Source: a bacterium (GTDB lineage Bacteria > Hydrothermota > Tepidihabitantia > Tepidihabitantales > Tepidihabitantaceae). From it: a DNA stretch of 37,767 nucleotides. The stretch lies in NCBI GenBank assembly GCA_035505375.1, contig DATJQV010000052.1, forward strand, positions 1 to 37,767, given 5' to 3'. The position numbers and the translations under genes are program-made. Each line of letters begins with the position of its first letter. The stretch's first letter is position 1. Under the pieces are notes generated by a model that was not told the DNA's origin, made no database searches, and worked only from the letters and a program-made list of their open reading frames with translations. Shown in pieces: positions 33,043 to 37,767 of this stretch.

Positions 33043-33113
33043 GTCTCAGTTCGCAAGGCTGCTATGCGGTTTGGATAGACCGGGAACGGGGCCCGGTGAC
33101 AAAGGAGGCCGCA

Positions 33114-34298
33114 ATGAGTCTGTTCGACAAGTGTGCAGAAACCGTAAGACGGTTTGACTACGTAAAGGCTCATAACCAGTACTTCTATTTCCGCGAGTTT
33201 GAGCCGACCGCTGCCGCATTCGTCAACCACGCCGGCAAACGGTTGATGATGCTCGGGGCAAACAACTACCTCGGCCTTTCCAATCATCCCAAAGTTATCG
33301 CCACCGCCCAGGCGGCAATCGCCAAGTACGGGACCGGCGCCGGGTCTTCGCGCATCCTGACCGGCACAAGCCCGCTTCACGTCGCGGTCGAGCGGGCGCT
33401 GGCGAAGTTCAAGGGGACCGAGGACGCGGTGCTGTTCAGTTCCGGGTTCATGGCGATGATGGGCACGGTCGCGACCATGACGGGCGAGGGCGATGTGGTG
33501 CTGAGTGATTCGCTGAACCACGCATCGATTGTCGACGGTTGCCGCCTGTCCCGGGCCGAGAAGCGCATCTACCGGCACGATGACATGGCCAGTCTCGAAG
33601 AGGAGTTGGCGAAGTGCGCCGCCTTCGCGAACCGGTTGATCGTGACCGACGGCGTGTTCAGCATGAAGGGTACGGTCGCCAACCTGCCGGAGATCCGGCG
33701 CCTCGCCGACAAGTACGATGCCGCGGTGATGATTGACGACGCCCACGGCGCGGGCGCGCTGGGGAAGACTGGACGCGGCACGGCCGAGCATTTCGGGCTG
33801 GAGGGGAAGATCGAGCTTGTCTGCGGCACGTTCTCCAAGGCGCTCGCGAGCTACGGCGGATTCTGTGCCACGAATCGCGACGCCTGCACGTTCCTGAAGT
33901 TCACTGCCCGGTCCGCGGTTTTCACTGCGAGTCCGCCACCGGTGGTCGCGGCTACGGTCCTTGCCTGCCTCGATGTGATGGAACAGGAGCCGGGGTTGAT
34001 GGACCAGGTGCGCCGGAACTCGCAGTTCTTGAAAGACGGGTTGAAGCAGGCCGGATTCCGCCTCGAGGACACTATCACACCGATCATCCCGATTCTCATC
34101 GGCGACGATGAGCGGACGTTCAAGATGGCGGGCGGCCTGCAGGACGAGGGTATTGTGGTCAACCCGGTGGTGCCGCCGGCAGTGCCGAAAGAGGGCTCGC
34201 TCATCCGAGTCAGCCTCATGGCGACGTTCACGCTCGACCAGTTGGACGAGGCCCTGGGTAAGTTCAAGAAGGTCGGCCGCGCCCTCGGCGTGGTATAG
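33114..34298 (+). CDS. Alpha-oxoamine synthase, serine-palmitoyltransferase-like
   Basis: 394 residues, ATG with aaaggagg 5 nt upstream. The PLP-dependent family (SPT, KBL, BioF, HemA) condenses an amino acid with an acyl-CoA. Seen: YFYFREFEPTAAAFVN, LMMLGANNYLGLSNHPKV, GTGAGSSRILTGTSPLHVAV, DSLNHASIVDGCRLSRA, VMIDDAHGAGALGKTGRG and the PLP lysine Lys242 in GTFSKALASYGG. The N-terminal FYFR segment with MLGANNYLGL resembles bacterial serine palmitoyltransferases of Bacteroidetes more than KBL or BioF; the following lipid-type genes support making a sphingoid base (3-ketosphinganine), but substrate use is inferred. It has tandem promoters and heads a five-gene cluster. The family is certain, the SPT subtype moderate. 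Confidence 0.85.
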   Translation: MSLFDKCAETVRRFDYVKAHNQYFYFREFEPTAAAFVNHAGKRLMMLGANNYLGLSNHPKVIATAQAAIAKYGTGAGSSRILTGTSPLHVAVERALAKFKGTEDAVLFSSGFMAMMGTVATMTGEGDVVLSDSLNHASIVDGCRLSRAEKRIYRHDDMASLEEELAKCAAFANRLIVTDGVFSMKGTVANLPEIRRLADKYDAAVMIDDAHGAGALGKTGRGTAEHFGLEGKIELVCGTFSKALASYGGFCATNRDACTFLKFTARSAVFTASPPPVVAATVLACLDVMEQEPGLMDQVRRNSQFLKDGLKQAGFRLEDTITPIIPILIGDDERTFKMAGGLQDEGIVVNPVVPPAVPKEGSLIRVSLMATFTLDQLDEALGKFKKVGRALGVV

Positions 34299-34301
34299 CC
34301 G

Positions 34302-34973
34302 ATGGACCACGGTTGCCGCCGGGCCGTGCTCGTCTGCCTGCTTGCCGCCGGGATCGCGGTAGCGGCAACGTGCGAGGAACGGCTGGCGCGAGGGGAAATC
34401 GTAGTGACGCGCCTGCCCGCCGCACGCAAGGGACAGCTGGGTGGTCGGTCGCAGGGCGTCATCGCCGTCCCGCTTGACCGGGTCTGGGCCGTGCTGAACC
34501 GGTCCAACGAGTTCGCGGACTACATGCCGAACTTTCTTGTGTCGTGGCTCGTTGACCGGGCTGCGATGGGCGACATCGCCTGCCGTCGGTGGCAGCGGGC
34601 CGAGCTTGAGGGGGTGCTGAAGAAGTATCTGCTGGCAGACTGGATCGGGGACACGGTGCTGTTCTACAACGTGCTCGACATGCCGTTCCCGGTTTCCGAC
34701 CGGTGGTACCTGCTCGAGATGACGCGTGACACGACCACGCACTCCATAAGCTGGAGCCAGGTCGTCGGCAACCTCAAGTCGACGGCGGGTTCCTGGCAAC
34801 TGGCGCCGTGGCTCGACAGCGTGCATACGCTGGCAACCTACACGACGGTTTCCGAGCCGGGGATAGCGCTGCCCGCGTTCGTTCTCGACATGGGTCTCAA
34901 CCAGTCGCTGCCCGGCGTAATCAAGGCGCTGAGAAAACGGGTGGCGCAACCCGACAAGGAGGCGTGGGAATGA
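34302..34973 (+). CDS. START/SRPBCC lipid-binding-fold protein, exported
   Basis: 223 residues; ATG 3 bp after the previous stop. N-terminal signal (RRAVLVCLLAAGIAVAATC). Residues ~45-215 look like a START/SRPBCC helix-grip fold: SQGVIAVPLDRVWAVLNRSN, EFADYMPNF, ACRRWQRAELEGVLKK, LDMPFPVSDRWYLLEMTRD, HSISWSQVVGNLKSTAGSWQ. Such domains form a deep hydrophobic cavity for lipids or polyketides. With a signal peptide it would act in the periplasm, perhaps carrying the lipid product of the cluster. The last codon overlaps the next start (ATGA), so it is translationally coupled. Fold assignment is by motif pattern, not residue-level certainty. Confidence 0.72.
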   Translation: MDHGCRRAVLVCLLAAGIAVAATCEERLARGEIVVTRLPAARKGQLGGRSQGVIAVPLDRVWAVLNRSNEFADYMPNFLVSWLVDRAAMGDIACRRWQRAELEGVLKKYLLADWIGDTVLFYNVLDMPFPVSDRWYLLEMTRDTTTHSISWSQVVGNLKSTAGSWQLAPWLDSVHTLATYTTVSEPGIALPAFVLDMGLNQSLPGVIKALRKRVAQPDKEAWE

Positions 34974-35677
34974 AGGGCCTAGGCCTCGGTCTGGTGGCTT
35001 TGATGTCCGTCCTGTTCATCGCCGTCCACGGAATCGCCCTGCTGGTGCCGGCGGCCGTGTTCCGTTATCTCATTATCCCTCCTGCGAACCGCGGGCTGCT
35101 CGGGTTTGTCGGAGCCGTGTTCCTCGTCGTCGTGGATGTCGTGCTGCTGCTCATCATGCTCGTGGTTACGACCGGGCTTGCGGCGCGCCTGCTCGGTCTC
35201 CGCTACTCGGGCGAGCACGAGGTCGACCTCCGCATCCCGGCAGTGCGCAACTGGCTGCTCAACTTCACCATCTACTTCCCGACGGCGGTGGTTATCGACT
35301 TCCTGCACCTCTACTCTCTCAAGACCCTGCACGTCAGCCTGCTCGGCGGGAAAGTCGGCCGCGGGGTCGTACTCGCCGGCATGATTACCGACCCGTGCCT
35401 GATTGATGTCGGCGACTACACCAACATCGGCGGGTTCTCGACCGTGATGTGTCACTCTACCGAGCACGGCCGCATCCGGTTCGCCCCGGTGAAGATCGGC
35501 CGCAATTGCGGGGTCGGAACGCGCTCCACGATCTTGGCGGGCGCGACGCTGGAGGACGGAGCGATGCTCGGCGCCGGTTCACTCCTGCCCAAGTTTGTCA
35601 CCATCCCGGCTGGCGAGACGTGGGGCGGGGTCCCGGCGAAACCCTTGCACCGCAAGGAGACTGAGCAGCCGTTGTAG
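34970..35677 (+). CDS. Membrane-anchored left-handed beta-helix (hexapeptide) acyltransferase-like protein
   Basis: 235 residues, start overlapping the previous stop. Two membrane segments at ~5-35 (LGLVALMSVLFIAVHGIALL) and ~43-72 (GFVGAVFLVVVDVVLLLIML) precede a hexapeptide-repeat domain at ~130-225: LLGGKVGRGVVLAGMITDPC, IDVGDYTNIGGFSTVMCHST, VKIGRNCGVGTRSTILAGAT, EDGAMLGAGSLLPKF. The His in MCHSTEHG fits a catalytic base of this class. By family knowledge it would transfer an acetyl or acyl group from CoA; acting at the membrane and placed in a lipid cluster, it may decorate a lipid headgroup. Substrate unknown. A heptamer array follows directly. Confidence 0.82.
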   Translation: MKGLGLGLVALMSVLFIAVHGIALLVPAAVFRYLIIPPANRGLLGFVGAVFLVVVDVVLLLIMLVVTTGLAARLLGLRYSGEHEVDLRIPAVRNWLLNFTIYFPTAVVIDFLHLYSLKTLHVSLLGGKVGRGVVLAGMITDPCLIDVGDYTNIGGFSTVMCHSTEHGRIRFAPVKIGRNCGVGTRSTILAGATLEDGAMLGAGSLLPKFVTIPAGETWGGVPAKPLHRKETEQPL

Positions 35678-35683
35678 ACTCGA

Positions 35684-35746
35684 AGATGCAAGGTGCAAGA
35701 TGCAGGCTGCAAGATGTAGGATGTGAGACGAGAGACATGAGATGAG
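35684..35746. repeat. Heptamer array, nine units, reaching the ribosome site of the UbiA gene
   Basis: agatgca, aggtgca, agatgca, ggctgca, agatgta, ggatgtg, agacgag, agacatg, agatgag, followed immediately by gagg. The last unit plus gagg forms the gaggagg ribosome-binding site of the GTG at 35755. Confidence 0.88.
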
Positions 35747-35754
35747 GAGGACCT

Positions 35755-36735
35755 GTGGCTGATAGCACTGCCGGATTTCTGACGCTGCGCTTCTGGCGAG
35801 CTTATCTAATTACGATGAGGCCGTACCTATTGTTCGTGTCCGGTACGGCTGGCGCGGTCGGCCTTGCGTTCATCCCGACGCCGGTCTACTGGCGTGTGGT
35901 GCTGGTGTTCTTCCCGCTCTTCCTGTCATACGGGTTCGGGCAGGCGTTGACCGACTGTTTCCAGACCGACACCGACTCGATCTCGTCGCCGTACCGACCC
36001 CTGGTTCGGGGCGAGGTGACGCGCGGCAGCGTGCTGCTCGTGAGCCTTGCCGGGCTTATCATCGGCACGCTGATTGTCGGGTACATAAGCCGGGTCGCGC
36101 TCTGCCTGTCCGCTCTGGCGGTGCTCGGGCTGCTCACCTACACGTTCTTCAAGCGCCGTTGGTGGGGCGGTCCGGCATGGAACTCGTGGATTGTGGCCCT
36201 GCTGCCGCTGGTCGGCCGCAACGCTGATTCCGGCTATCGCATGACCGGATTCTTCAACTGGACCGACCCGCACGTCCTGGCCTTTTCGCTCGCGGTCGCG
36301 GCCGTGTTCTTCGGCTATGCCAACTTCGTAGTGATGGGCTATTTTAAGGACATCTCGGCTGACCGGCAGACCGGGTACAACACATTCCCGGTCAGGTTCG
36401 GCTGGGTCGCGAATGCCATATTCAGCGACCTGCTTGCCTTGGGAATTACCCTTGGCGCGGGCGCGGCCATCGTCCTGAGCGGCCCAGTCAAGCCGTTGGC
36501 CGGCATCGTTTTTCTTGCCGGGTTCGTAATCAACCTCTGGGCCCAAGTTGCGATTCACCGCATCCGCGACGAGGCGAAGTCGCACGGTCCGATTGCCAAT
36601 GTAGTCCGTGCCTTCGTCCTCTACGGGATGGCGGTGGTGCTCGCGCTCGAGCCGGGCTGGGTAATTCCGGCATTTGTGTTCTACGTTCTGTTCGAGGTCG
36701 TGCTCAGGATTCGACCCGAGCGCGCGCAGGTCTAG
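35755..36735 (+). CDS. UbiA-family membrane prenyltransferase
   Basis: 326 residues, GTG start 4 nt after gaggagg. About eight to nine membrane segments. The first aspartate motif is FGQALTDCFQTDTDSISSPY followed by RPLVRGEV; the second is YFKDISADRQTGYNTFPVRFG. The leading Asn of the usual NDxxDxxxD is replaced (TD-CFQ-TD), the other acidic positions remain. UbiA enzymes transfer a prenyl chain from a diphosphate onto an aromatic, sugar-phosphate or glycerol-phosphate acceptor. In a lipid cluster, an acceptor such as a lipid headgroup is conceivable, and digeranylgeranylglyceryl-phosphate-synthase-like activity is one option; quinone synthesis is another. Family secure, substrate open. Confidence 0.88.
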   Translation: MADSTAGFLTLRFWRAYLITMRPYLLFVSGTAGAVGLAFIPTPVYWRVVLVFFPLFLSYGFGQALTDCFQTDTDSISSPYRPLVRGEVTRGSVLLVSLAGLIIGTLIVGYISRVALCLSALAVLGLLTYTFFKRRWWGGPAWNSWIVALLPLVGRNADSGYRMTGFFNWTDPHVLAFSLAVAAVFFGYANFVVMGYFKDISADRQTGYNTFPVRFGWVANAIFSDLLALGITLGAGAAIVLSGPVKPLAGIVFLAGFVINLWAQVAIHRIRDEAKSHGPIANVVRAFVLYGMAVVLALEPGWVIPAFVFYVLFEVVLRIRPERAQV

Positions 36736-36737
36736 AG

Positions 36738-37767
36738 ATGGCAGGAGACTCGAAGACGCGGAGAAACGGAGATACGGAGACTCTTCCCGCCTCTGCGTCA
36801 CCGCGTCACGGCGTCGCCGCGTCTGGGCCGCTGCCCTTGGTCCTTCTGAACCCCGGCTGCAACTACACGACCGGCCGTTCGCGCTGGAACAAAGTCGCGA
36901 CCGGGCTGCGTGGCCGCATCGGCGAGTTTGACGTCGAGGAGCTCCGTTCCGAAGGCGCGGTGAAGGAGCAGGTCCGGGCCGCTTTCGTTCGCGGCGTGCG
37001 CAACTTCGCGGCTGCCGGCGGCGACGGCACGGTCAATCTGGTCGCCAACGCACTGCTCGAACTCGGAGAGAAGGGCATCGCTCTGGGCGCAGTAGGACTG
37101 GGTTCGAGCAACGACTTCCACAAGCCCTTCCGCAAAGAGGATTACATTGCCGGGATGCCGGTGCGGATTGAGTTCGCGCGTGCGCGGTCGGTCGACGTTA
37201 TCCGCATTGAGTACGAGAGCAGTGGTGGTGCTGGGCGTGACCCTTCGCAAAACGGGGACAGTCCCCATTTTGCTCGTTACTGTTTGCTCAACGCCAGCAT
37301 CGGGATTACGGCCGAGGGTAACGCGTTCTTCAACACGCGGACGACTCTCATCCGGACGCTGCAGCGCGTCTCTCAAGACCTGGCCGTGACTGGCGCTGCC
37401 CTGCGCAGCCTGTTCATGTTCAAGGACATTCCGGCCCGACTTGTCATCGACGGCGAACCGGCCCTCGATCTACCCATCACCAACCTCGGTATCATCAAGC
37501 GGCCGAACTTTGCCGGCTCTCTCCGGTACGACACCGAAATCTCCCTCGACGATGGCCGGCTCGGAGTCAACGTGACATATGGACTCTCTCTGTTCGGTCG
37601 GGTCGCGGCGCTGACGGCACTGTCGCGCGGCCGGTTCCAGGGCCGGCCCAATACCCTGTGCCGCCACGGCACCGACGTCAGGGTGACAAGTGAGCAGGAG
37701 TTCGCGGTCGAACTGGACGGCGAAATCGTCCGCACCAGTTCCGCAAGGTTTTCGGTGATACCCAAGG
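36738..37767 (+). CDS. Diacylglycerol/sphingoid-base-kinase-like lipid kinase (3' end outside window)
   Basis: At least 343 residues; the frame runs off the window. The kinase core starts at ~34: PLVLLNPGCNYTTGRSRWNK, then FAAAGGDGTVNLVANALLEL (the GGDGT nucleotide motif), ALGAVGLGSSNDFHKPF and later LLNASIGITAEGNAFFN, matching the DagK/YegS/LCB5 family that phosphorylates diacylglycerol, ceramide or long-chain bases. The first ~28 codons from ATG 36738 are an octamer repeat element, so the true start may instead be a TTG near 36837. A minimal hairpin repeat is read through in frame at 37249-37271 (QNGDSPHF). With an SPT-like enzyme in the cluster, a sphingoid-base or ceramide kinase is an attractive but unproven reading. 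Confidence 0.83.
   Translation, partial: MAGDSKTRRNGDTETLPASASPRHGVAASGPLPLVLLNPGCNYTTGRSRWNKVATGLRGRIGEFDVEELRSEGAVKEQVRAAFVRGVRNFAAAGGDGTVNLVANALLELGEKGIALGAVGLGSSNDFHKPFRKEDYIAGMPVRIEFARARSVDVIRIEYESSGGAGRDPSQNGDSPHFARYCLLNASIGITAEGNAFFNTRTTLIRTLQRVSQDLAVTGAALRSLFMFKDIPARLVIDGEPALDLPITNLGIIKRPNFAGSLRYDTEISLDDGRLGVNVTYGLSLFGRVAALTALSRGRFQGRPNTLCRHGTDVRVTSEQEFAVELDGEIVRTSSARFSVIPK
36754..36822. repeat. Octamer inverted-pair element at the kinase gene's 5' end
   Basis: Left arm agacgcgg, agaaacgg, agatacgg, agactctt (36754-36785); right arm ctctgcgt, caccgcgt, cacggcgt, cgccgcgt (36791-36822). Same two-arm plan as in thrC but with a different word. Confidence 0.82.
37249..37271. repeat. Minimal hairpin repeat, copy C, inside the kinase gene
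   Basis: aaaacggggac / gtccccatttt around one base; only the outer arms of the 66-bp repeat are present (compare 2391-2456 and 18205-18270). The kinase frame passes through it as QNGDSPHF. Confidence 0.75.

Follow-up and report, generated by a model that had tools for sequence, protein, structure and literature searches.

What kind of compound could be made by a group of genes in which an SPT-like alpha-oxoamine synthase stands next to a UbiA-type membrane protein and a lipid kinase? This question is raised by one end of the analysed stretch of DNA (the window, 37,767 nucleotides), which is the complete contig C52 of the WOR-3 genome G000 (3.6 Mb, 98% complete). A preliminary description of the window had pointed to five consecutive genes, close-set and in part overlapping. 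All five ORFs were confirmed on the + strand (Table 1), with intergenic gaps of +3, -4, +77 and +2 bp in gene order; the kinase gene runs off the contig at its 3' end. The Pfam matches were, in the same order, Aminotran_1_2, Polyketide_cyc (weak, 28 bits), Hexapep, UbiA, and DAGK_cat together with YegS_C. For the synthase an alternative in-frame GTG start is possible upstream, at 33096. The 77-bp gap 5' of the UbiA gene (35678-35754) is a degenerate short-repeat tract (tgcaagatg-like).

Table 1. Genes of the operon at the end of contig C52 (positions in the window).
Feature	Position	Strand	Evidence
SPT-like alpha-oxoamine synthase, PLP enzyme	33114..34298	+	Pfam, active-site residues, trees
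START/Polyketide_cyc-fold putative lipid-binding protein, clade-specific	34302..34973	+	Pfam
Hexapeptide (left-handed beta-helix) acyltransferase, clade-specific	34970..35677	+	Pfam, NCBIfam
UbiA-superfamily membrane protein, distinct subfamily	35755..36735	+	Pfam, motifs, tree
DagK/YegS-type lipid kinase, last codons missing at contig end	36738..37767	+	GGDGT, GSSNDF, Pfam

Orthologs of the UbiA-like protein were searched for in 147 genomes of the WOR-3 phylum and found in 10, all with at least 54% identity. In nine of these ten genomes, which belong to several families, synthase, UbiA and kinase lie in one cluster and in that order. Chance clustering is ruled out, since other WOR-3 families retain this order; the five ORFs are genuine genes and make up an operon at the end of contig C52. 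In the tenth genome (G007, a single scaffold) pieces of the operon are scattered, overlap and contain runs of N (L071, L072, L097, L115), which is probably a scaffolding artefact. The expectation that all five genes stay together in relatives thus held for synthase, UbiA and kinase, but not for the START and hexapeptide genes, which among the WOR-3 operon carriers were found only in G000, G004 and G007. In G043 a DUF3419 (BtaA-like) gene and a GNAT gene fill their slot. In five WOR-3 genomes the operon is extended by genes for a reductase and a B12-radical-SAM enzyme, in three of these also by one for an acyl-CoA ligase; the radical-SAM partner is BchE/HpnJ-like. Beside the operon in G000 neither the reductase nor the acyl-CoA ligase was found, and the radical-SAM family had no ortholog in this genome at E 1e-100.

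A further gene belongs to this arrangement. In the relatives a ThiL/AIR-synthase-like gene lies directly 3' of the kinase; it adjoins the kinase in eight of the nine clusters, in G000 across a contig break, and is absent in G055. The G000 ortholog sits at the end of contig C3, where its first ~38 residues are missing; the gene after it is convergent. Judged from this position and the gene order of the relatives, C3 would be the continuation of C52, and the operon of G000 would comprise six genes, the sixth being the ThiL-like kinase on C3. A second, distant AIRS-type match occurs elsewhere in G000.

The synthase had been taken for an SPT-like enzyme rather than a KBL, and the phylogeny agrees: it falls inside the SPT assemblage (support 100/98), and KBL and BioF are separate. 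The WOR-3 operon synthases and a second group of WOR-3 paralogs (100/99) are together sister to all characterised SPTs. (One row of the later synthase tree, GB_G176, is a mistranslated fragment and was disregarded.) The active-site Lys, His, Asp/His and Arg are all present (K242, H136, D208/H211 and R365). The nearest solved structure is the SPT of Sphingobacterium multivorum (3a2b/8guh, E 1e-105), a Bacteroidetes enzyme with the same PLP active-site residues and the same C-terminal tail, NPVVxPAVPxxxSLIR; in both features the synthase agrees with this SPT and not with KBL. It differs in lying outside the clade of characterised SPTs, in scoring 449 bits on the NCBIfam Bacteroidetes-type SPT model (cut-off 640), and in having no recognised ceramide synthase or CerR beside it. 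On the KBL model it scored 401 bits (cut-off 460), and no equivalog cut-off was reached. In a Black Sea survey, homologs outside the known-SPT clade were treated as probably divergent in activity (PMC11334938). Hence the use of serine by the operon synthase, judged from sequence, is only plausible.

G000 also has a canonical SPT of its own on contig C80 (L068, 8376-10679), which falls among the known SPTs, apart from the operon synthase. It is adjoined by a 370-aa GNAT-fold gene, and the same pair occurs in L083. This neighbour is a candidate N-acyltransferase for a ceramide-like lipid; within the operon itself neither a ceramide synthase nor a ceramide reductase was found. A GNAT-fold gene 28% identical to the neighbour sits near UbiA in L178 (Gemmatimonadota). 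Yet another SPT-like synthase of G000 (L067, 7041-10164), a member of the sister group of the operon synthases, has genes for an acyl-CoA ligase and for a TPR protein as neighbours.

The UbiA-like protein matches PF01040 with 85 bits. Its closest solved relatives are DGGGP synthase, the best PDB match, and chlorophyll synthase, with which it has in common the fold family, a conserved Tyr and the second aspartate motif (K198-D199-xxx-D203; KDxxAD in all 22 orthologs). In contrast, motif 1 reads T66-D-C-F-Q70-T-D-T-D74 instead of the usual NDxxDxxxD, and the 22 UbiA-like proteins form a single clade of their own (99/99). The form TDCFQxDTD is found in 20 of the 22 orthologs, and the other two have the variants TDVFQ and TDCTQ. 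In every one of them both metal ligands of motif 1 are replaced (N by T, D by Q), whereas other clearly aligned UbiA copies of the same genomes retain ND and D. The alignment to DGGGP synthase has no gaps between the flanking anchors Y-G and P-x-RP-L, so a shift of register in motif 1 is unlikely.

The Mg ligands of AfUbiA are two residues of motif 1, N68 and D72, and two of motif 2, D198 and D202. GPP binding was lost when N68 or D72 was changed to alanine, and mutating the equivalent residues inactivated MenA (PMC4106721). At the sites of N68 and D72, 22 of 22 UbiA-like orthologs have T and Q. Judged from the sequence alignment, this makes ordinary prenyl transfer by the UbiA-like enzyme doubtful, and the simple prenylation envisaged at the outset is unsupported in that form. 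Ubi-297 was considered as the same enzyme and rejected; it belongs to the ebo cluster (PMC9235831).

The fifth gene had been described as an LCB5/DagK-type kinase. The DagK part of this description stands, since the GGDGT motif of DAGK_cat and a YegS_C domain are kept; the LCB5 part does not, since the only structures matched by sequence were DgkB/YegS, with no sphingosine kinase among them. From DgkB/YegS the operon kinase differs by its GSSNDF signature, its own operon context and scores well below all NCBIfam cut-offs. The first ~28 residues of the ORF are encoded by an ACGGAGA-type repeat (36738-36825) that is missing in the orthologs, and the actual start codon may lie 3' of 36738. Within the ORF, at 37250-37270, there is also an in-frame REP-like palindrome (AAACGGGGACAGTCCCC), the orthologs being without any; a diverged copy is found near the opposite end of the window, at 2437-2453.

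The ThiL-like protein has the AIRS fold and retains the ATP-side motifs of ThiL, GGD and D(T/S)SDG. It differs from ThiL by GGD(T/V)N in place of GGDTT, by HGE(F/Y)EL in place of GDDYEL and by a conserved N-terminal extension, and the G003 copy scored 156.9 bits on the ThiL equivalog (cut-off 184.15). The exchange of GDDYEL for HGE(F/Y)EL suggests that this kinase acts on an acceptor other than that of ThiL. As for the two clade-specific proteins, the START protein in our reading carries a signal-like stretch at its N-terminus. The hexapeptide acyltransferase has hydrophobic helices at its N-terminus, and its best NCBIfam matches, the Pls/PosA terminal domain (66 bits) and heptaprenylglyceryl-phosphate O-acetyltransferase (44 bits), are both far under cut-off.

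Searches outside WOR-3 covered parts of three other phyla. The UbiA ortholog was present in 6 of 395 Bacteroidota and 6 of 298 Gemmatimonadota genomes, and absent from 297 genomes of the phylum that holds the Aminicenantes locus as well as from the 16 genomes behind synthase matches from other phyla. UbiA, kinase and ThiL-like gene stood together as a trio in all six Bacteroidota loci and in four of the six from Gemmatimonadota. Between the three proteins the pairwise distances are correlated (0.80-0.92); common descent by itself would have the same effect. The Bacteroidota loci run UbiA, kinase, ThiL-like, synthase, with a gene of the same B12-radical-SAM family as in WOR-3 next in three of them and with BtaA-like and GNAT genes in one; DUF3419 (BtaA-like) and GNAT genes thus accompany the operon in two phyla. 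In the tree, the synthases of the Bacteroidota operons are not part of the SPT clade; their grouping is only moderately supported (72/100). This suggests a second recruitment, so that an alpha-oxoamine synthase appears, from the trees, to have joined the trio twice.

None of the four Gemmatimonadota loci with the trio has an adjacent synthase. A gene of this radical-SAM family is nearby in three, and MMPL and LolA_like genes adjoin the trio in two. A synthase of the SPT clade is encoded elsewhere in five of the six Gemmatimonadota genomes; in the sixth, G1091, only a KBL-like synthase and no SPT-type one was found at the threshold used. The trio without adjacent synthase, together with the situation in G1091, indicates that the core may be independent of a sphingoid base.

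How could these proteins work together? We consider the locus an undescribed lipid-biosynthesis operon, with the UbiA-like enzyme, the DagK-type kinase and the ThiL-like kinase as its core, fed in WOR-3 by a synthase that is sister to the SPTs (probability about 0.5). The product is probably a membrane lipid built from a sphingoid-type base. The view that the genes fit lipid chemistry was supported; the acyl-CoA ligase, reductase and B12-radical-SAM genes in the operons of relatives are of lipid-type families and favor a lipid pathway. The view that the combination is foreign to known bacterial sphingolipid clusters was supported as well: no described pathway with a synthase, a UbiA protein and two kinases was found in the open-access papers searched.

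From the genes and their order, conservation, phylogeny and motifs we infer the reactions, their sequence and the product as follows. The synthase would form a long-chain amino-ketone by condensation of an acyl thioester and an amino acid (probably serine), and a short-chain reductase, whose gene is in the operon of the five WOR-3 relatives and not adjacent in G000, would reduce the ketone. The invariant trio and the known roles of its families suggest that kinase, ThiL-like and UbiA-like protein act in series: the DagK-type kinase would phosphorylate a lipid hydroxyl, the ThiL-like kinase would add a second phosphate to give a lipid diphosphate, and the UbiA-like enzyme would join a chain to an acceptor. 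Its partner could be the diphosphate or a lipid phosphate, and the chemistry of this step could not depend on the usual magnesium site of motif 1. Alternatively, the product of the DagK-type kinase could itself be the acceptor, by analogy with GGGP for DGGGP synthase. The variable cassette (START protein and hexapeptide acyltransferase, elsewhere BtaA-like protein and GNAT) most likely decorates the head group and would thereby complete it.

In plant phytol salvage, the kinase VTE5, the phosphate kinase VTE6 and the UbiA-type HPT lead from an alcohol to the phosphate, the diphosphate and finally UbiA-type transfer. The proposed pathway would resemble it in this logic only; to our knowledge the phytol-salvage kinases belong to families unrelated to the operon kinases. 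The terms of the salvage route are found in PMC7999835. A bolder version of the proposal, which we regard as tentative, would posit bacterial membrane lipids of a new class: a UbiA-fold enzyme whose metal site has been remodelled might couple a lipid diphosphate made by the DagK-type and ThiL-like kinases to a sphingoid-type amine, and the module would be common to WOR-3, Bacteroidota and Gemmatimonadota, with an alpha-oxoamine synthase recruited at least two times.

Other interpretations have to be weighed against this operon reading. One that has some, if limited, likelihood is that an ordinary UbiA prenyltransferase adds an isoprenoid to a sphingoid base phosphate, as DGGGP synthase does to GGGP, and that the hexapeptide enzyme acetylates the product. 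The structural relatives of the UbiA-like protein, its intact motif 2 (KD-x3-D) and the weak match of the hexapeptide enzyme to the heptaprenylglyceryl-phosphate O-acetyltransferase are in its favor, but it has to cope with the loss of both motif-1 ligands in all orthologs and leaves no role for the conserved ThiL-like kinase. DGGGP synthase being the best PDB match, one might even think of archaeal-type ether lipid synthesis with the UbiA-like protein in that function. This is very improbable: the operon carriers G000, G003, G004, G007 and G036 have no GGGP synthase (PF01884), and relatives that do have one possess other UbiA copies with canonical motifs. The archaeal route was therefore rejected as not at work in G000.

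It is rather unlikely that the product is a secondary metabolite, a signal or a quinone-like compound, formed when the UbiA-like enzyme decorates an amino-ketone precursor delivered by the synthase. The patchy spread over the three phyla and the BchE/HpnJ-like radical-SAM partner would suit such a compound, yet the DagK-type kinase and the BtaA-like, MMPL and LolA-like partners indicate a lipid. A standard bacterial ceramide or phosphosphingolipid operon, to which UbiA belongs only incidentally, would account for the Sphingobacterium-type active-site motifs of the synthase and for the presence of a kinase, as in Caulobacter, where a kinase takes part in ceramide phosphorylation (PMC11324152). 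We hold this to be improbable, because UbiA and the ThiL-like gene are part of the conserved core, hence not incidental, and because a canonical SPT with its GNAT-fold neighbour is already encoded on contig C80. Threonine or glycine catabolism, with the synthase as a KBL, is hardly conceivable: the common fold and ~38% identity to KBL are outweighed by the tree and by the true KBL of G000 on contig C59 (581.6 bits, cut-off 493), which together rule out this identity.

If the proposed pathway is correct, bacterial sphingolipid-type chemistry would gain a route via a UbiA-fold enzyme and a ThiL-like kinase, two families that the open-access papers searched do not tie to sphingoid lipids. SPT-like genes by themselves would then not prove ceramide production. 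The combination of a TDCFQxDTD UbiA protein, a GSSNDF kinase and an HGE(F/Y)EL ThiL-like protein would moreover serve as a genetic marker by which an orphan lipid could be traced in three phyla.
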